A stretch of 64,000 bases of DNA from Hyalangium ruber (GTDB taxonomy: Bacteria; Myxococcota; Myxococcia; Myxococcales; Myxococcaceae), in contig NZ_JAXIVS010000006.1 of the NCBI RefSeq assembly GCF_034259325.1, forward strand, positions 248,001 through 312,000, written 5' to 3'. Positions within the stretch are counted from its first letter, which is position 1; every line of letters starts with the position of its first letter. The translations under genes were made by a program, and so were the position numbers. Positions 36,380 to 48,106 of this stretch are shown here, one piece after another. The notes beneath the pieces are model-generated. The model saw only the letters and a list, made by a program, of their open reading frames with translations. It did not search any database and had not been told where the DNA came from.

Positions 36380-38137
36380 GTGACGACCAAAACGCGCAAG
36401 GGCAACAAGTCGGATCCGCTCTCGGATCTGCCTCGCTGGGCGCAGAAGCTGGCCCAGAAGTACTACACGAAGACGGTCAGCACCTTCCTGCTGTACGGGG
36501 CGGTGCGGGACTTGCAGCCCATCACCGTGGAGGATGGCACCCGGGGCTACGGGACGCTGAAGACGTTCCTGGCCGAGGAGCTGTTCGGCGGGCGGGACCA
36601 CGTCATCTTCTACGACCGGTCCTCGGGCATCCGCGCCTCGGCGCCGGAGACGCAGAAGGACCTGCAGCGGGCGATGACGGGCTACGACGCGCTCTACGGC
36701 ACGGACTACGCCAAGAGCCTGCCGAGGGACCCAGGTCGGGCGCTCCAGATTCTGGAGAACTTCCTGCGGCTGCGGCTGAGCGAGGGCAAGTCGATGGCGC
36801 TGGTCATCGACTTCGCGGAGACGCTGGTGCCGGGCGGAGAGATGAGCCACCTGTCGGCGGAGGACCGCTTCGTGGTGGCCACGCTGGACAAGTGGGCGCA
36901 CGACCCGCAGTTCCTGTCGAACGACATCTCCGTGGTGCTGCTGGCGGAGAACCTGGCGGACATCTCGCCGCGCATCGCGCGTAACCCGTACGTGGCGCCC
37001 ATCGAGCTGCCGCTGCCGACCGAGGAAGAGCGGTTGGACTACGTGCGCTTCAAGCTGGAGGGCAAGCGGCTGCAGTCGGTGTCGGACGTGTCGCTGGCGG
37101 CGCTGGCGAAGATGACGGCGGGCCTGTCGCGCATCAACCTGGACCGGGTGCTGACCGAGGCGCTCGAGCGCGACGTGCGGATTACGACGGAGCTGCTCAA
37201 GGAGAAGAAGAAGGAGCTCATCCAGGCGGAGTGCCACGGCTTGTTGGAGTTCATCGAGCCGGTCCACAACCTGGACGCGGTGGCGGGGCACGCGAAGGCG
37301 AAGGAGATGCTGCGGCACGCGGCCAACGCGCTGAAGAAAGGCCACAACGAGGTGATGCCGATGGGCTACCTCATCAGTGGGCCGGTGGGCACGGGCAAGA
37401 CGTTCATGGTGACGAGCTTCGCCGGAGAGATTGGGATTCCGGCGGTGAAGTTCCTGAACTTCCGCAGCCAGTGGCAGGGCGTGACGGAGTCGAACCTGGA
37501 GCGCATCTTCACGCTGCTCAAGGCGCTGTGGCCGGTGGCGGTGATGGTGGACGAGGCGGACACGTTCCTGGGGAACCGGGACTCGGGAGGCGACTCGGGG
37601 ACGAGCAGCCGCGTGTTCGGCACGATTGCCTCCTTCATGGGCAACACGCAGTACCGCGGGAAGATCGTCTGGTTCCTGATGACGGCGCGGCCGGACCTGC
37701 TGCCCATCGACCTGAAGCGGCAGGGACGTGCGGAGGAGCACCTGGCGCTCTTCTATCCGCAGACGGACGAGGAGCGGAACCACCTCTTCAAGGTGATGCA
37801 GAAGAAGACGGGCGTGGAGGTGGACGTGCCGTCGTTCGCGGAGCTGATGCCGGATGCTTCGCGCAACTTCAGCGGCGCGGACATCGAAGCGGTGATGGTG
37901 CGCTCGAAGTTCCGCGCACTGGCGGACGGGCGCGACAAGGTGACGGTGGAGGACCTGAAGGCGGTGCTCGCCGACTTCCTGCCGCCGAGCTACCCGCTGG
38001 AGATTGAACTGCAGAACCTGGTGGCGGTGCAGGAATGCACGAGCAAGGAACTGCTGCCGCAGCAGTTCCGGGACATGGACCGCGACGCCATCACCCGGCG
38101 GGTGCGCGAGCTGAAGATGCTGCTCGAGGAGCAGTGA
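36380..38137 (+). CDS. Tandem AAA+ ATPase with degenerate first domain
   Basis: A 585-residue protein, GTG start with GGAGGGA upstream. The N-terminal part (about 20-290) has AAA-like strands (LVIDFAETLVPGG, SVVLLAENLADISPRIARNP, ASL-like EERLDYVRFKLEG) but no Walker A, so it appears inactive. The C-terminal domain (about 300-520) is canonical: GPVGTGKT at 334-341, Walker B VMVDEADTF with Asp391/Glu392, sensor 1 in FLMTARPDLLP and the sensor-2 helix NFSGADIEAVMVRS. This resembles CDC48-type tandem ATPases with one live ring. Role unknown; it is downstream of the PEGA kinase. Confidence 0.9.
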   Translation: MTTKTRKGNKSDPLSDLPRWAQKLAQKYYTKTVSTFLLYGAVRDLQPITVEDGTRGYGTLKTFLAEELFGGRDHVIFYDRSSGIRASAPETQKDLQRAMTGYDALYGTDYAKSLPRDPGRALQILENFLRLRLSEGKSMALVIDFAETLVPGGEMSHLSAEDRFVVATLDKWAHDPQFLSNDISVVLLAENLADISPRIARNPYVAPIELPLPTEEERLDYVRFKLEGKRLQSVSDVSLAALAKMTAGLSRINLDRVLTEALERDVRITTELLKEKKKELIQAECHGLLEFIEPVHNLDAVAGHAKAKEMLRHAANALKKGHNEVMPMGYLISGPVGTGKTFMVTSFAGEIGIPAVKFLNFRSQWQGVTESNLERIFTLLKALWPVAVMVDEADTFLGNRDSGGDSGTSSRVFGTIASFMGNTQYRGKIVWFLMTARPDLLPIDLKRQGRAEEHLALFYPQTDEERNHLFKVMQKKTGVEVDVPSFAELMPDASRNFSGADIEAVMVRSKFRALADGRDKVTVEDLKAVLADFLPPSYPLEIELQNLVAVQECTSKELLPQQFRDMDRDAITRRVRELKMLLEEQ

Positions 38138-38219
38138 GCATTAGCTAAATAGGGGGGTGCCCATGCTTTTAGGGAGGAACCCTTCAACAGCAAACTGGCT
38201 GCAGTGTGCCGGAAACTCT

Positions 38220-38247
38220 GAACGCACAGTAACTGGAATGTGCGTTC
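38220..38247. terminator. Inverted repeat at island edge, possible terminator
   Basis: A perfect 9-bp stem GAACGCACA / TGTGCGTTC around a 10-nt loop in the 177-bp gap between the AAA+ gene and the minus-strand DprA-like gene. It has no strong T-run in either direction. It could terminate convergent transcripts or mark the island junction. Confidence 0.4.
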
Positions 38248-38314
38248 CGGAGGCGGGATGCCTATTGCCTTACGAAGGTAAACCGTCTTAGCAGGATCCC
38301 TGCCGAAGATGGCC

Positions 38315-39655
38315 TCAGTGAGGCAATCGTTCCAGCGCGTATTGTGGTGGACTTCCCTTCCTCGCGAGGCGGTGCTGCTCGCATGCTTTCTCAAGCCATC
38401 TGCGCGCCTGCACGCATTCAATGGCGAAGTACTCCGCGACTTGCTGCTCAGAGCGGGGTTCTGTCTCTATAAACGGCGTGAGTTGTGCGAGAAAGAACTC
38501 GAATAGATCGTCCGCAGATCTACTCCACGCGTGGCCTGTGGCTGATTGGGGCTCGGACGTAATCTCCTCAGGGGGCTTCTCAAGGGGAGGCTCCAGTGGA
38601 GACGGAAGATCATGCTCGGACCGGTCGGCTTCGGTGGAACTTGGGGCTAGCGTACCGAAGAGTAGCAGGTTGGATGGCTCAATCTTTGTTGTGGAAGCCG
38701 TGCGCTTGGTAGCTTTGCGAGTAAGAAGAGTGCGGAGCGAATTTCGCTGAGCCAATTCCTCCTCCGTCAGCGGGGAGAGTCCGAGGTCCGCCAATTTATG
38801 ATTGCCTTCGCGGACGTTATTCCCGACTCGGACGGAGGCAGGAACCCATCCATGCTTGTGATTCTCGACCGCACCTGACCATGTTCCCCCCTTGGTATCC
38901 GAATCAACCACTACGGCTGCCAGCGACAAGGCATATAGGTATTTGTTGCGATCCATCGCGTGCGCAACGGTGAACGGAGCCTCGGGGCTGAACGGCGAGA
39001 CCAAAGCAAGCGTACCTTTCATGAGTTCCTGTCGGTTCCTCTTAGAGAGGATCGCTTTGCCGAGGCCATCTGATAAGACGCCAACAACTCTTCCCCCTGC
39101 TTCGAGCGCTCCAGACATTGCTTCTCTATCGACACCGCGAGCGTCCCCAGATACGACTGCAAGCCCTTCCTCCGCGCAGGCTGCTCCGAGCGTACGCGCG
39201 AACCTAAGGCCCGATGGTGTCGCATCTCTGGAACCAACCACGCAAACAGCGTCCCTACCTAAGAGTTCGGTATTCCCAGCGAAAAATAGGATAGGAGGGG
39301 CCAAGCTTTTAAGGATGGTGCGTAGCCGTACTGGATAGGCAGAATCGCTGCGGCCGAGCACACCGATACCTGACTGGCTCCAGCGTTCTGTTGCCAGCGC
39401 CAAAGCTGCGCCTCGGCGAAGAAGGCGATTGAGTCGCTCCTGCGCTATGAAGTCAGGGGACAGTCCTTCGGGAACGTTCGACAGGAGATCTGCTGGACGC
39501 AGGCTGCGGGCGAGCAATTCCTTTGCGAGCCGATTGTATTCAATCAGCGCGAGCGGCCGGTTGGACTCATCTTTATTGCCAGGGAAGTGCCCACAGAGCA
39601 GGAGTGTCACTTGCGTGTCAGGTGAAAGTAAGTCGTGTGGTGCCATCATCTTCAC
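38315..39655 (-). CDS. DprA/Smf-like DNA-processing protein
   Basis: A 446-residue protein. The Rossmann-like DprA core lies at about 110-290: PPILFFAGNTELLGRDAVCVVGSRDATPSG, then LAVVSGDARGVDREAMSGALEAGGRVVGVLSDGL, the ssDNA/nucleotide-binding signature (VVGSR and SGxARGxD). Later ALSLAAVVVDSDTKGGTWSGAVEN corresponds to the family's final strand. A linker with low-complexity Glu/Pro content leads to a possible winged-helix end (SEQQVAEYFAIECVQARRWLEKA). It is longer than housekeeping DprA (about 300-370). The start overlaps the helicase stop by 4 bp (ATGA), so it is translated second. Lower GC than flanking genes points to acquisition. DprA in general loads RecA on incoming ssDNA; here a defence or plasmid-related role is possible. 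Confidence 0.85.
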   Translation of the reverse strand: MKMMAPHDLLSPDTQVTLLLCGHFPGNKDESNRPLALIEYNRLAKELLARSLRPADLLSNVPEGLSPDFIAQERLNRLLRRGAALALATERWSQSGIGVLGRSDSAYPVRLRTILKSLAPPILFFAGNTELLGRDAVCVVGSRDATPSGLRFARTLGAACAEEGLAVVSGDARGVDREAMSGALEAGGRVVGVLSDGLGKAILSKRNRQELMKGTLALVSPFSPEAPFTVAHAMDRNKYLYALSLAAVVVDSDTKGGTWSGAVENHKHGWVPASVRVGNNVREGNHKLADLGLSPLTEEELAQRNSLRTLLTRKATKRTASTTKIEPSNLLLFGTLAPSSTEADRSEHDLPSPLEPPLEKPPEEITSEPQSATGHAWSRSADDLFEFFLAQLTPFIETEPRSEQQVAEYFAIECVQARRWLEKACEQHRLARKGSPPQYALERLPH

Positions 39656-41766
39656 CCCGAGGATGCCGAAGCCAGGGAGAGCGCCAACGGATAGACTGCT
39701 TTAACCTCGGCTTGTCGTAGCAGCGCCCCGATTACGGTCATTGACCAGCGCGAGTCCACAACGTCGTCGATCAGTAGTACAGGGCCTGGATGTACTAGGC
39801 CGGCCGTGACCGCGAATGCGCCGTCCAAGTTATGTGCCTGTTGCCATGCGTTCATCATGAGGCGCTGACGTTCTGTTTCCTCCACCTTGGAGACTGCACC
39901 AATAAAGGGCAGGCCCAGCTTTGCGGCGAGCCGTCTCGCAAAATCTGGCACGAGGCGAGGACTTCGAAGTGACGGAACACAGGTAACCCAGGTTGGAGAT
40001 GGATTGGGCCGCCAACGGTCCCGCACCATCTCAGCGCAGGCCACCACGAGCTCGTCGCGAAAACGGCCTTTCTCCTTGTCCTCCCGTACGAGTTTCGCCC
40101 AGCCCATATCGCCCCAGAGAGATAGGGCGCGGCCCTGTTCATTCTGCCGATCTAGGGGAATGTTTCCACGCCAGTTGTACTTGGGGAACGCACCTGTCTG
40201 CCACCTCTGGCGAGGTTTGATAAAAACTTCGCTGCGGCGCTCGAACGCAATAGCGGCATTAACCGTCGACGGGTGATAGCCGAGAGGAACAACAGGCTGG
40301 CCAAGACAAGTGGCGCAACGTCCACACTGTTGGGCATTTGGATCATCTAAGGCTTGCTCAAGGAATTCCATGAGGCAGGATTTCGAGTCCATGTACTCCT
40401 GCATCTGCTGCCATTCCTCCTGCCGGTGCTCCGTAAGCCGCAAGATACGTTCGCGATCCACCTGATACGGGTTTGGGGTTCGGACCCAGCGGCTTCCGTC
40501 ACGGACGATGGGAGCCGCGTCGGCGGCTGCGAGGAGCTTGAGCACTTTCTCAAGCTGGCCCATACGGAGATTGACCTCGCGCATCAACTCCGGGACGCTA
40601 AGCCCAGTCTCTGCCTCCTCTAGCGCAGCAAGGATTGCGTGGACCTGCGCTTCCGGTGGGAATGCATTAGATATGAAGTGCTGGTTGATCTCATCATCTT
40701 CCGCACCGCTAAGCAGCACGCCAAAGGCTACCGCAATTGCGCGCCCAGCGCGGCCGACCTGCTGGTAGTAATGAACAACCGATTGAGGCGACTGAAAGTG
40801 GATGACGAAGCCCAAATCAGGTTTGTCAAAGCCCATGCCAAGTGCGCTGGTGGCAACCAGCGCCTTAAGGTCATTGTTCAGAAGCTTGGCTTCAAGATCA
40901 GTTCGGAGGCTAGGAGAGTTCTCTTCCTCGGCATTACCATCGATCCGGCTGTGGTAGGCGGCTGCGGAGATTCCCTGCTGCGTGAGCCAATCAGCGACTC
41001 GGTCAGCATCTCGGACTGTCAGTGTGTAGATAATGCCGCTTCCGGGGAGCTGGGGCAGGTTATTGGCAAGCCAAGCAAGGCGGGAGGCTCGATCCGGGAG
41101 GGAGATATTCTGAAGCCTGAGACTGGGTCGTGCGAGCGGTCCGCGCTGTAATATGGTTGTAGGCCCGAGTTGACCCAAAACGTCCTCGACGACGCGGTCG
41201 TTAGCGGTCGCGGTGGTGGCGAGGACAGCGACATTCTCCGGTAATTTTTGCAGAATTCGGTTGATGCGCTGGTAATCCGGTCGGAAGTCGTGGCCCCAGT
41301 CAGAGATACAGTGCGCTTCGTCCACCACAAAAAACTCAATCCGCTCGGCAATCGGCAACAAGCACTCTTGAAGGAAATCGTCGTTCGAGAGCCGCTCAGG
41401 GGAAACCAGCAGCAGGTCCACCATGTTTTTGCGGATCCTCTGCTTGACCTCGGTCCACTCGTCTCGGTTCGACGTGTTGATCGTCTCGGCCTTGAGGCCG
41501 AGTCTCCGTGCTGCGTCTAGTTGGTTCCGCATCAGTGCCAGCAGCGGAGAGATGATCAGCGTGGGCCCAGCGCCCTGATTGCGGAGCAGTCTAGTGGTGA
41601 GAAAGTACACCATGCTCTTGCCCCAGCCGGTGCGCTGAACGAGCAGCACTCGGTTCCGGTTTTGCACGAGCGCTTGGATTGCGTCCCACTGCCCTTCGTG
41701 GAATTTGTCGGCCGCACCACCTGATGCCGCCCGCAGCCACTCCAACGCTTCCTTTTCCGTCACCAT
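39652..41766 (-). CDS. RecQ-type DNA helicase fused to ComF-like phosphoribosyltransferase domain
   Basis: A 704-residue protein. RecQ-like SF2 helicase motifs run in order: I RTGWGKS, Ia SPLLALMRNQL, II VDEAHCISDWGHDFRPDY, III ATTATAN, then VATSALGMGFDKPD and VI YYQQVGRAGRA. A Zn-binding Cys cluster (CLMEF...CGRCATCLG) follows at about 463-488. The C-terminal about 200 residues are not a normal RQC/HRDC: they read WVTCVPSLRSPRLVPDFARRL, then NAWQQAHNLDGAF and PGPVLLIDDVVDSRWSM, the ComF PRPP-binding signature. The start has AAGGGAGA 5 nt upstream. Coupled to the DprA-like gene by an ATGA overlap. Ancestral GC is not matched, so it was probably acquired horizontally. Confidence 0.9.
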   Translation of the reverse strand: MVTEKEALEWLRAASGGAADKFHEGQWDAIQALVQNRNRVLLVQRTGWGKSMVYFLTTRLLRNQGAGPTLIISPLLALMRNQLDAARRLGLKAETINTSNRDEWTEVKQRIRKNMVDLLLVSPERLSNDDFLQECLLPIAERIEFFVVDEAHCISDWGHDFRPDYQRINRILQKLPENVAVLATTATANDRVVEDVLGQLGPTTILQRGPLARPSLRLQNISLPDRASRLAWLANNLPQLPGSGIIYTLTVRDADRVADWLTQQGISAAAYHSRIDGNAEEENSPSLRTDLEAKLLNNDLKALVATSALGMGFDKPDLGFVIHFQSPQSVVHYYQQVGRAGRAIAVAFGVLLSGAEDDEINQHFISNAFPPEAQVHAILAALEEAETGLSVPELMREVNLRMGQLEKVLKLLAAADAAPIVRDGSRWVRTPNPYQVDRERILRLTEHRQEEWQQMQEYMDSKSCLMEFLEQALDDPNAQQCGRCATCLGQPVVPLGYHPSTVNAAIAFERRSEVFIKPRQRWQTGAFPKYNWRGNIPLDRQNEQGRALSLWGDMGWAKLVREDKEKGRFRDELVVACAEMVRDRWRPNPSPTWVTCVPSLRSPRLVPDFARRLAAKLGLPFIGAVSKVEETERQRLMMNAWQQAHNLDGAFAVTAGLVHPGPVLLIDDVVDSRWSMTVIGALLRQAEVKAVYPLALSLASASSG

Positions 41767-42359
41767 TAGAATCTCCCTTAGGAGCAGCCAAGGACGCCGA
41801 TACTTGCCACCTTGCCAGGTAGGATCAACGCCGAAGTCGTTCCATCAGGTTCCCATATTGGCAGGGCGCTAAATCGCAAAGAGGGCAGGTGCTCAAGCGC
41901 TCGTAGGTGCATTTGCCCAGTGCCCGGATTTACTAGAGTTCGCAGCTGGCGGACTTCACGTTAAAAGCCAGTCCCAGTGAGGGGATTCGCAACAGTCAAC
42001 GTAACGGGAGAACTCCGATGCGGCACAAGCCGCAGGCTGAAATACAACCTGCTGGCCGCGATGGGAGCGTCCCTGTCAACCTCGTGGTCACTGGCGCCAA
42101 TAAGAACGGCTTCAATTTGGTGCAGCAAACCTTTGAACTTAGTGCCGGTTCAGAGGCCGAACCCCACGAAAGCTCGACTCAGCAACTATACCTAGATCAG
42201 GCTACGACTACAGCAAGGTGTGCAGGTGGGGCAGCCCAGTCGGCTTGAGCCAGCACGCATGTGCGCCCGTGTCTCCCTGTCCGTCCCAAGAAGGGCTGCC
42301 GCAAGAATGCGCGCCGAGTGGAGCAGCCGAACATGCTCCTACATCGATTCTTCGCCTTG
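41767..42359. other. Gene-poor, lower-GC flank of the helicase/DprA island
   Basis: This 593-bp stretch separates the helicase start from the C-terminus of the giant hybrid kinase on the same strand. It holds the presumed promoter of the helicase operon (none could be fixed with confidence) and a GGCAAG direct repeat near 41802-41816. A small hairpin TGCGGC-ACAA-GCCGCA (42019-42034) and one possible small plus-strand gene, listed separately, also lie here. No integrase, tRNA end or insertion-sequence inverted repeat was recognised. Confidence 0.6.
42018..42248 (+). CDS. Possible small protein in the island flank
   Basis: A 76-residue frame beginning at ATG with GGGAGA upstream. The sequence (start MRHKPQAEIQPAGRDG) has no recognised domain, signal or membrane segment and is moderately polar. 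The GC profile is that of the surrounding island. It runs opposite to the helicase operon. It may be a real small gene or chance; coding statistics were not computed. Confidence 0.3.
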   Translation: MRHKPQAEIQPAGRDGSVPVNLVVTGANKNGFNLVQQTFELSAGSEAEPHESSTQQLYLDQATTTARCAGGAAQSA

Positions 42360-46010
<3,651 letters not shown>

Positions 46011-46126
46011 CCTATCCCGCAGGTAGAGCACACCTGGGGGGCTTTACACAACTGATTAGGTAGTCCGGGAGCGCGAGGTTATCCGGGCCTGGGCCTTGGG
46101 CAGGCCTTCGGGGAGCAGGCGGGGAC

Positions 46127-48106
46127 TCAAGGGGCGGTCACGGTGAGCTGCTTGCCGGCGGGCACGGCGCGGTGGTCCTTGATGTTGTTCCACCGCTTGA
46201 TGTCCTCGACGCTGACGCCGTAGCGCTGGGCCACCGACCAGAGCGTCTCTCCGGCGGCCAGGGTGTGGACGGCGGCGCGGCCGGCCTTGGCGGGAGCAGG
46301 AGCGGGAGCGAGCGCCGGGGCGGGCTGCTCCCGGGCGGCCACCACGGTGCCGGAGCGCTCCACCACGGCGGGGGCGGCGCCGGGCCACACCTGGATGACG
46401 GTGCCGACCTTCAGCCCACGCTTGCGGCGGGGCAGGCTGTTCCAACTGCGCAGGTCCTCCACGGTGACATTGAAGCGCTGGGCGATGGCCCACAGGCTGT
46501 CGCCCTCCTGCACGCCGTAGATGACGCGGGTGCGGCCGCCGATGACCTCGGTCTTGATGGGGCCGGTGGCGACGGGAGCGCGGGGCGTGCCGGCGGGGAT
46601 CTCCTCCTCGGGGCGAAGCGCGGTGACGCCGCTGCGGCGCGCCTGGGCGACCTTGCGCTCCAGCGCGGCGCCGCCGCCCTTGCCGGCGGGCACGGGGATG
46701 GCCAGCTCCGCGTTGATGCGCAGGGCGCGGGCGCTCTTGAGGCGGTTGAACTGGAGGATGGCCTCCGGCGCGCTGCCATAGGCCCCAGCGATCTGGGACA
46801 GCGTGTCGCCGCGCCGCACCTTGTGGATGCGGAAGGTGAGCCGCTCCTGGGGGGCGAGCTGCTTGATGTTCTCGGCGAACTTCTCCGCCGAGCCCTTGGG
46901 CAGCCGGAGCAGGTAGGGCGACTTCTCGGAGGCGGGCGGGGTGCACCAGCGCTTGAGCTCGGGGTTGAGGTCATGCACGTCCTTGACGCTCACCCCGGCG
47001 GCGCGGGCGATGACGTCCAGGTCCATGGCGTCCACGAGCTTCACCTCGTCGAAGGCCAGGGCCTCCTCGTACTCGAACTCCTCCTCGCGGAAGCCGAAGG
47101 CACCGGGGTTCTTGGAGATGAGCGCCGCGGCGATGAGCTTGGGCACGTAGTGCTGCGTCTCCTTGGCGAAGCCCTTCTCCTCGCACAGCTCCCAGAAGTT
47201 CGAGGTGCCGTGGCGGTCCATCATCCGCCGCACGCGCCCGCCGCCGGTGTTGTAGCCGGCCCAGGCCAGGTACCAGTGGCCCAGGTCCTTGTGCAGCGCC
47301 TTGAGGTAGTTGGCGGCGGCGTGGGTGGCCTTCACGGGGTCGCGGCGCTCATCCACCCAGAAGTCCTGGCGCAGGCCGTACTCGCGGCCGGTGCTGGGGA
47401 TGAACTGCCAGGGCCCGGCGGCGTGCGCCCACGAGTAGGCGTGAGCGGAGAAGCCGCTCTCGATCATCGCCAGGTACACCGTGTCGCGCGGCAGCCCCTT
47501 GGCCTCGAGGATGGGCTGCATCATGGGCATGTAGCGCGTGGAGCGGGAGACCCACTTGCGGAACCACTTGCGGCCCGGGCCCTGGAAGAACTGGATGTAC
47601 TGGGCCACCAGGGGCTGCATCTCCACGGGGATGTCGTAGCGGTCCTGGAGCTGGCGCACGTCGAAGTTGGCCAGGTCGCGGATGAGGGGCAGCTCGGGCG
47701 GGGTGTCATCGTCGCGGAGGGTGGGCTCCTCCAGGACGTCCATCATGCGCAGGCGCAGGGGGTTGGCGATGCCCAGGCGGCGCAGCGACTGGAGCACCTG
47801 CGCGTTGGGGCGGGCGCCCGGGTCCAGGGCGGCACCCTCCAGGGCGCGCAGCTCCTCGAGCTCGGCGGACTCGGACTCCACCTCCTCGTTGGCCTCCTCG
47901 GGCTCGGTGCCCTCGGGGGCGTCGGCGCCCGCCGGGGCTGGGGCGCTGGCGGTGCCCTCTTCGCCCTGGGCGGCGCTGCCCGCGAGCAGCTTCTTGTCCT
48001 CGGTGTCGAGCAGCCGCATCCCAGGCGGCGGAGGGGGCATCGGCAGCACCTCCTGTGCGGAGGGGACCGAGGCGAGGGCGACCAGCATGAGGCACAGAGA
48101 CGGCAT
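46127..48106 (-). CDS. mltD: MltD-like lytic transglycosylase with three LysM domains
   Basis: A 659-residue secreted or periplasmic enzyme that cleaves peptidoglycan glycan chains. ATG 48106 gives signal MPSLCLMLVALASVPSAQ; longer starts would read into non-signal sequence. An acidic Glu-rich segment (about 55-110) precedes the SLT domain (about 210-340). The catalytic Glu is in YLAMIESGFSAHAYSWAHAAGPWQFIP, with the GLRQDFWVDERRDPVKAT and AWAGYNTGGGRVRRMM signatures. Three LysM modules complete it: HKVRRGDTLSQIA, YGVQEGDSLWAIA and HTLAAGETLWSVA. Domain order matches MltD/DniR-type enzymes. Confidence 0.93.
   Translation of the reverse strand: MPSLCLMLVALASVPSAQEVLPMPPPPPGMRLLDTEDKKLLAGSAAQGEEGTASAPAPAGADAPEGTEPEEANEEVESESAELEELRALEGAALDPGARPNAQVLQSLRRLGIANPLRLRMMDVLEEPTLRDDDTPPELPLIRDLANFDVRQLQDRYDIPVEMQPLVAQYIQFFQGPGRKWFRKWVSRSTRYMPMMQPILEAKGLPRDTVYLAMIESGFSAHAYSWAHAAGPWQFIPSTGREYGLRQDFWVDERRDPVKATHAAANYLKALHKDLGHWYLAWAGYNTGGGRVRRMMDRHGTSNFWELCEEKGFAKETQHYVPKLIAAALISKNPGAFGFREEEFEYEEALAFDEVKLVDAMDLDVIARAAGVSVKDVHDLNPELKRWCTPPASEKSPYLLRLPKGSAEKFAENIKQLAPQERLTFRIHKVRRGDTLSQIAGAYGSAPEAILQFNRLKSARALRINAELAIPVPAGKGGGAALERKVAQARRSGVTALRPEEEIPAGTPRAPVATGPIKTEVIGGRTRVIYGVQEGDSLWAIAQRFNVTVEDLRSWNSLPRRKRGLKVGTVIQVWPGAAPAVVERSGTVVAAREQPAPALAPAPAPAKAGRAAVHTLAAGETLWSVAQRYGVSVEDIKRWNNIKDHRAVPAGKQLTVTAP

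Follow-up and report, generated by a model that had tools for sequence, protein, structure and literature searches.

Two genes on the minus strand of the window (the whole 64,000-nucleotide stretch of Hyalangium ruber DNA analysed here) encode a RecQ-like helicase fused to a ComF-type phosphoribosyltransferase (PRTase) and a protein of the DprA family. Do these genes belong to the competence machinery of the cell, do they form the unrecognised DNA-processing cassette that an earlier note proposed, or are they part of a system that has already been described? Judged by their sequences, the two genes are a member of the already described PsyrTA (RqlHI) system and not a new cassette; what the earlier note observed is confirmed, but it is not novel. 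In our assessment they are very probably a toxin–antitoxin and anti-phage pair that this myxobacterium acquired horizontally.

Identification of the pair as PsyrTA

An open-reading-frame check recovered both genes described in the earlier note, with psyrT first in the operon and psyrA directly downstream of it on the minus strand (window 38315–41766; Table 1). The 4-bp overlap that had been noted between them (GTGA) is present provided that translation of psyrA begins at the GTG at 39655; residues 3 and 4 are encoded by ATG and could also serve as starts, in which case the two genes would be separated by a gap of 2–5 nt. A spacing of −4 is also found in about ten other homologous loci.

Table 1 Features of the psyrTA locus, with positions counted along the window
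Feature	Position	Strand	Size and basis
psyrT (rqlH-like), predicted toxin gene, RecQ-like SF2 helicase fused to ComF-type PRTase	39652..41766	-	704 aa; ORF, Pfam, PADLOC
psyrA (rqlI-like), predicted DprA-family antitoxin gene	38315..39655	-	446 aa; ORF, Pfam, PADLOC
GTGA stop/start overlap of psyrT and psyrA	39652..39655	-	4 bp, if the psyrA GTG start is used
RecQ-type helicase core of PsyrT, aa 20-374	40645..41709	-	Pfam, NCBIfam, alignment
RecQ zinc-binding region of PsyrT, aa 446-488	40303..40431	-	PF16124, E=8.5e-4, under gathering score
C-terminal PRTase domain of PsyrT, ComF/ShosT-like fold, aa 511-700	39667..40236	-	profile and predicted structure
PRPP-binding loop of PsyrT, D667-D-V-V-D-S-R-W-S675	39742..39768	-	alignment to RqlH
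DprA Rossmann domain of PsyrA, aa 93-291	38783..39379	-	Pfam, profile, model
C-terminal winged-helix-like domain of PsyrA, aa 381-441	38333..38515	-	model, pLDDT >90 over most
Low-GC block including both non-coding flanks of psyrTA	about 38138..42200		GC profile
Segment missing at the orthologous site in four related species, psyrTA and a histidine-kinase gene	38139..46116		collinearity

The top PADLOC match of the first protein was the PsyrT model (1.1e-289, residues 4–700 of 704) and that of the second was the PsyrA model (3.7e-121, residues 10–441 of 446), with the ShosA and DpdF models scoring far lower on the same proteins. The window proteins are 54% (PsyrT) and 43% (PsyrA) identical to those of a pair located between gntU and yhgN in E. 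coli Nissle, which we identified as RqlH and RqlI from the same model matches and from residue numbering that fits the published mutants. The locus combines a full-length PsyrT, a psyrA gene directly downstream, and the residues K50, D149 and D668 of PsyrT. PsyrTA, the name used in PADLOC and DefenseFinder, was reportedly the subject of work by Sberro et al. in 2013. As RqlHI, the pair was published as a toxin–antitoxin system (Russell and Mulvey 2015, PMC4670107). The idea of an unrecognised candidate cassette is not supported: the pair is a known annotated system, PsyrTA/RqlHI (PADLOC, PMC4670107, PMC9122126), an outcome that the earlier note itself had named as refuting it.

That housekeeping competence genes for ComF, DprA and RecQ came to lie side by side by chance, a reading for which only the family names speak, has a probability close to nil. 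The same genome encodes a canonical DprA and a ComF elsewhere, the pair is missing from most relatives, and scores fall far under the equivalog cut-offs of the NCBIfam recQ (273 against 640 bits) and dprA (97.7 against 191 bits) models; this reading is refuted. DpdF of the Dpd system was likewise rejected (169 bits against an equivalog cut-off of 550), the PsyrT model scoring far higher.

Domains and residues of PsyrT and PsyrA

Profile searches supported the RecQ and DprA assignments of the earlier note, with PF00270 and PF00271 marking a clear RecQ-type helicase in PsyrT and PF02481 a clear DprA domain in PsyrA. In the helicase, the Walker A lysine K50 and D149 of the DEAH motif are conserved and align with K49 and D148 of RqlH, and the cysteines of the zinc region (C464, C481, C484 and C487) are conserved in an alignment of homologues. 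The C-terminus of PsyrT had no PRTase match in Pfam and a marginal one to NCBIfam comF (E=0.016), and a profile built from 59 homologues matched PRPP synthetases and amidophosphoribosyltransferase. A confident AlphaFold2 model of residues 470–704 (pLDDT 94.5) confirms the ComF-type PRTase domain that had been claimed: the best structural match of the predicted fold was H. pylori ComF (Z 15.1 over 159 residues, 2.8 A) and the second the ShosT toxin (Z 12.2 over 164 residues, 3.2 A), both ranking over a wide variety of other PRTases (Z 9–11).

In the host's own ComF, the positions K..Q..N..AF follow one another as they do in PsyrT. Its loop is LLIDDVFTTGAT, and the counterpart in PsyrT is LLIDDVVDSRWS; the PRPP loop of PsyrT is therefore altered. 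Because this loop reads DSRWS and deviates from the classic TTGxT pattern, PsyrT may not share the chemistry of ordinary PRTases. Within the loop, D668 aligns with D663 of RqlH, and on the alignments the helicase, zinc and PRPP-site residues of PsyrT are intact.

PsyrA is predicted to consist of an N-terminal helical region, the DprA Rossmann domain, a disordered linker (about aa 321–378, pLDDT <50) and a C-terminal winged helix, and its profile matches DprA and ShosA structures. As the earlier note remarked, the protein is longer than the housekeeping form (446 aa against the 382-aa open frame of the genome's canonical DprA), because of the disordered linker and the C-terminal winged helix; yet this length is usual for PsyrA, whose model has 398 positions and whose E. 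coli relative has 431 aa. The PsyrA proteins of two other myxobacterial loci are short (331 aa, L094, 8626–9621; 323 aa, L095, 8913–9884) and are without the C-terminal winged helix.

Horizontal acquisition at a variable site

The low GC reported for the block was borne out: psyrA (0.573) and psyrT (0.584), or 57–58%, and their flanks (0.54–0.57) lie well under the window as a whole (0.683), and GC3 is 0.58 and 0.65 in the two genes against about 0.85–0.97 in most other genes of the window. Of the 147 genomes of the class, 5 encode PsyrA (4 of 48 genera), and so do 3 of 79 near relatives. Among these 79, four have a full-length PsyrT, one of them lacking PsyrA.

In four species of one related genus, collinearity with the window extends to 38138 and resumes at 46117–46127; at their empty site just tens of bases separate the two collinear parts. 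The break in collinearity thus delimits an inserted segment in which psyrTA is accompanied by a histidine-kinase gene of high GC. The insertion site is variable, since its cargo differs in other relatives. It follows a conserved AAA+ ATPase gene (36380–38137; junction at window 38138/46117; loci L087, L092 and L093), and its other cargo comprises histidine-kinase and chitinase-like genes, secretion- or pilus-like genes, and a short single gene. The histidine-kinase gene of the window (42360–46031) encodes a hybrid two-component sensor (Reg_prop, Y_Y_Y, HisKA, HATPase and receiver domains) from a family with at least 6 copies in the same genome, and it has normal (high) GC though it lies within the same inserted segment as psyrTA.

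In a phylogenetic tree the window PsyrT groups with a Sinorhizobium protein (support 100), and the remaining myxobacterial copies are scattered elsewhere in the tree, one sitting on a long, unsure branch. The pair is chromosomal and present in a single copy in this genome. These findings show that psyrTA is an accessory, horizontally acquired unit; the rarity of the pair, the empty site in four relatives, and the canonical DprA and ComF encoded elsewhere agree with the earlier view of a mobile accessory unit distinct from the competence genes.

We found no mobile-element ends at the borders of psyrTA, and the borders of the low-GC block share no direct or inverted repeat beyond one 10-mer, which is compatible with chance. 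The block gave no Rfam match, promoter and terminator scans around psyrTA returned signals at or below chance, and the 590-bp non-coding stretch upstream matched no plasmid and no Rfam family, nor did a 76-aa open reading frame inside it match Pfam. A phage origin was rejected, with PsyrT having no match in phage records and PsyrA none in viral contigs in a scan with close-relative patterns.

Defence context of paired relatives

Among 80 related loci, 76 have an intact psyrT reading frame, and in 40 of these psyrA directly follows psyrT. When the neighbouring proteins of paired and unpaired loci (111 per group) were compared with PADLOC models at E<=1e-20, the counts were 186 models for the paired and 1 for the unpaired group, a ratio that is only indicative given overlapping models, simple gene calls and an unpaired set that is mostly actinobacterial. 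Paired psyrTA genes sit inside type I restriction–modification (RM) operons between hsdS and hsdR in Vibrio, Providencia and an E. coli plasmid (L098, L111, L119), between HmaB and HmaC in Pseudomonas and Verrucomicrobia (L112, L113, L114), and within BREX operons in Acinetobacter and Clostridium (L100, L150). Across phyla, paired psyrTA genes lie in defence islands, and the enrichment that the earlier note suggested looking for is there. The analysis adds cases of PsyrTA inside restriction, BREX and Hma operons.

The nested pairs are placed between the modification and the restriction or ATPase genes of these other defence systems. In E. coli AVS0935 (L188, 6001–9387), an IS3-like element splits psyrT between helicase and PRTase, and psyrA is intact despite this, within a type I RM operon. 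Beside the window psyrTA no other clear defence gene was found, the PADLOC matches there being generic and mainly to Ser/Thr kinases (PD-T4-6/mad6); a defence island around the window copy was rejected for this reason.

The distribution of the pair bears on three other explanations. One is a DNA-repair or recombination module, in which PsyrT and PsyrA would cooperate on host DNA and toxicity would arise only on artificial imbalance. Both RecQ and DprA belong to families known from recombination, a joint function on DNA is the view favoured by Russell and Mulvey (PMC4670107), and the title of Ordonez et al. 2012, as cited in PMC5512222, describes Mycobacterium RqlH as a 3'–5' DNA translocase/helicase; nevertheless, scattered presence, an empty site and alien composition are unexpected for a housekeeping function, and paired loci are strongly associated with defence genes, so that we consider this explanation improbable. 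A second, which takes up the earlier note's idea of a role in handling incoming DNA, is that the DprA-like protein detects single-stranded DNA in the course of conjugation or transformation and that the targets are plasmids and not phages. The fold of PsyrA matches structures of DprA proteins that bind single-stranded DNA, and some psyrTA relatives are on plasmids and some beside ParAB, but plasmid carriage would also fit a plasmid-borne defence or addiction module and DprA–PRTase systems have measured protection against T7 and lambda; we regard such control of incoming DNA as unlikely. The third, a purely selfish addiction module that persists through post-segregational killing and brings the host no benefit, would account for the plasmid copies and for the type II-like toxin–antitoxin behaviour of RqlHI (PMC4670107). 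It has, in our estimate, little probability for the single chromosomal copy studied here, relatives of which are embedded in restriction, BREX and Hma operons in a manner that favours defence.

Paired and solitary PsyrT proteins

We compared 42 paired with 32 solitary PsyrT proteins and found 29 positions that are conserved in the former and lost in the latter. Sixteen of these positions are within the PRTase domain, among them K564, K627, Q634, Q643 and N646, and K564, Q634 and N646 correspond by eye to residues of the host ComF. The two groups also differ in phylogeny, so the idea that residue loss explains their difference is a hypothesis. Tentatively, paired PsyrT may keep a ComF-type catalytic loop (K564, Q634, N646, GAF) and be toxic and in need of PsyrA, and the large solitary actinobacterial clade may have lost these residues and become a non-toxic DNA helicase outside defence islands. 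Previously, no major differences were reported between RqlH with and without RqlI (PMC4670107), and the loss of ComF-type residues in the solitary clade may be a new observation. This clade (L152, L154-L162, L164-L169, L171-L184), which is outside defence islands, is mostly actinobacterial and has one myxobacterial member (L096).

The comparison offers a testable sequence explanation for the distinction between toxic, partner-dependent RqlH and solitary RqlH. If true, residue loss would explain why many bacteria have RqlH without RqlI, a question open since 2015, and would suggest that PsyrTA in RM, BREX and Hma operons is a built-in back-up effector.

A model for PsyrTA activity

Several published observations inform a model for the pair. 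Toxicity of RqlHI requires the PRTase domain and the aspartate of its PRPP site, with the change of D663 to Ala abolishing it; RqlI binds RqlH and rescues its toxicity; and helicase mutants of RqlH alter the outcome (K49, D148 and D663 having been tested by mutation) (PMC4670107). ShosTA, according to a review, comprises a PRTase/pyrophosphatase whose activity upsets purine pools and causes DNA damage, together with a DNA-binding antitoxin, and is triggered by T7 Gp0.7 (PMC12593503). A DprA–PRTase pair protects against T7 and lambda (PMC9122126).

By analogy with RqlHI and ShosTA, we infer that the window pair would act through PRTase-driven genotoxic abortive infection restrained by PsyrA. 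PsyrT would be the toxin, its RecQ-like motor loading onto DNA and travelling along it, and its ComF/ShosT-type PRTase would use PRPP in a reaction whose substrate would be nucleobases, nucleotides or DNA and which would damage the genome and lead to SOS induction, filamentation and death. PsyrA, made from the same operon, would bind PsyrT and restrain the PRTase, and might also protect or repair DNA, like other members of the DprA family. The balance of PsyrT and PsyrA would be tipped by phage infection or some other insult to the host, releasing the PRTase, such that the infected cell would stop growing before the phage could spread. By homology, PsyrT here is most likely a DNA-targeted PRTase toxin that would be freed during infection. 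That the window copy is active and protects against phages of this host, and what its trigger and chemical substrate would be, we infer in the same manner.

In one E. coli study, deletion or expression of a PsyrTA gave no detectable phage protection under the conditions used, only a growth cost (PMC12409345), and the defence role of the family is therefore less firmly shown than its toxin–antitoxin behaviour. The generic PADLOC matches around the window copy, the lack of relatives in the phage records and viral contigs scanned, and the altered PRPP loop also count against the model. For the locus itself the annotation is settled: what had been predicted to be a DNA-processing cassette is a PsyrTA/RqlHI pair that a myxobacterium acquired horizontally.

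Comparison with known systems

ComFC/ComF together with DprA shares with the window pair the PRTase fold (H. pylori ComF, Z 15.1) and the K, Q, N and AF positions of the host ComF, but the window PRTase is fused to a RecQ helicase and has DSRWS in place of TTGAT, and the pair is accessory and not conserved in the family. Solitary actinobacterial RqlH, such as that of M. smegmatis, has the same helicase–PRTase architecture, whereas it has no psyrA partner, forms a separate clade and has a PRTase without several ComF-type residues.

ShosTA, the DprA–PRTase system of Rousset et al. 2022 (PMC9122126), likewise joins a DprA-like antitoxin to a PRTase toxin of the same fold. Among the ShosT and ShosA structures compared (8zvb-8zvd, 8zva and 9vzo), ShosT matched the window PRTase (Z 12.2), and the PsyrA profile matched ShosA at 3e-17. 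Unlike the window protein, ShosT is without a RecQ helicase, so the stand-alone PRTase toxin characteristic of ShosTA is absent here; the PRTase domains are about 8% identical, and on the window DprA-like protein the PADLOC ShosA model scores 2.3e-31 against 3.7e-121 for PsyrA.

PsyrTA/RqlHI differs from the window pair in the PRPP loop (DIVDSAWT in E. coli, DVVDSRWS in the window), and the window pair is in a high-GC myxobacterium at an insertion site of its own. The two are alike in operon order (helicase–PRTase, then DprA-like) with near-zero gene spacing, in the same motor, zinc and PRPP-site residues, and in profile matches over the full length of both proteins.
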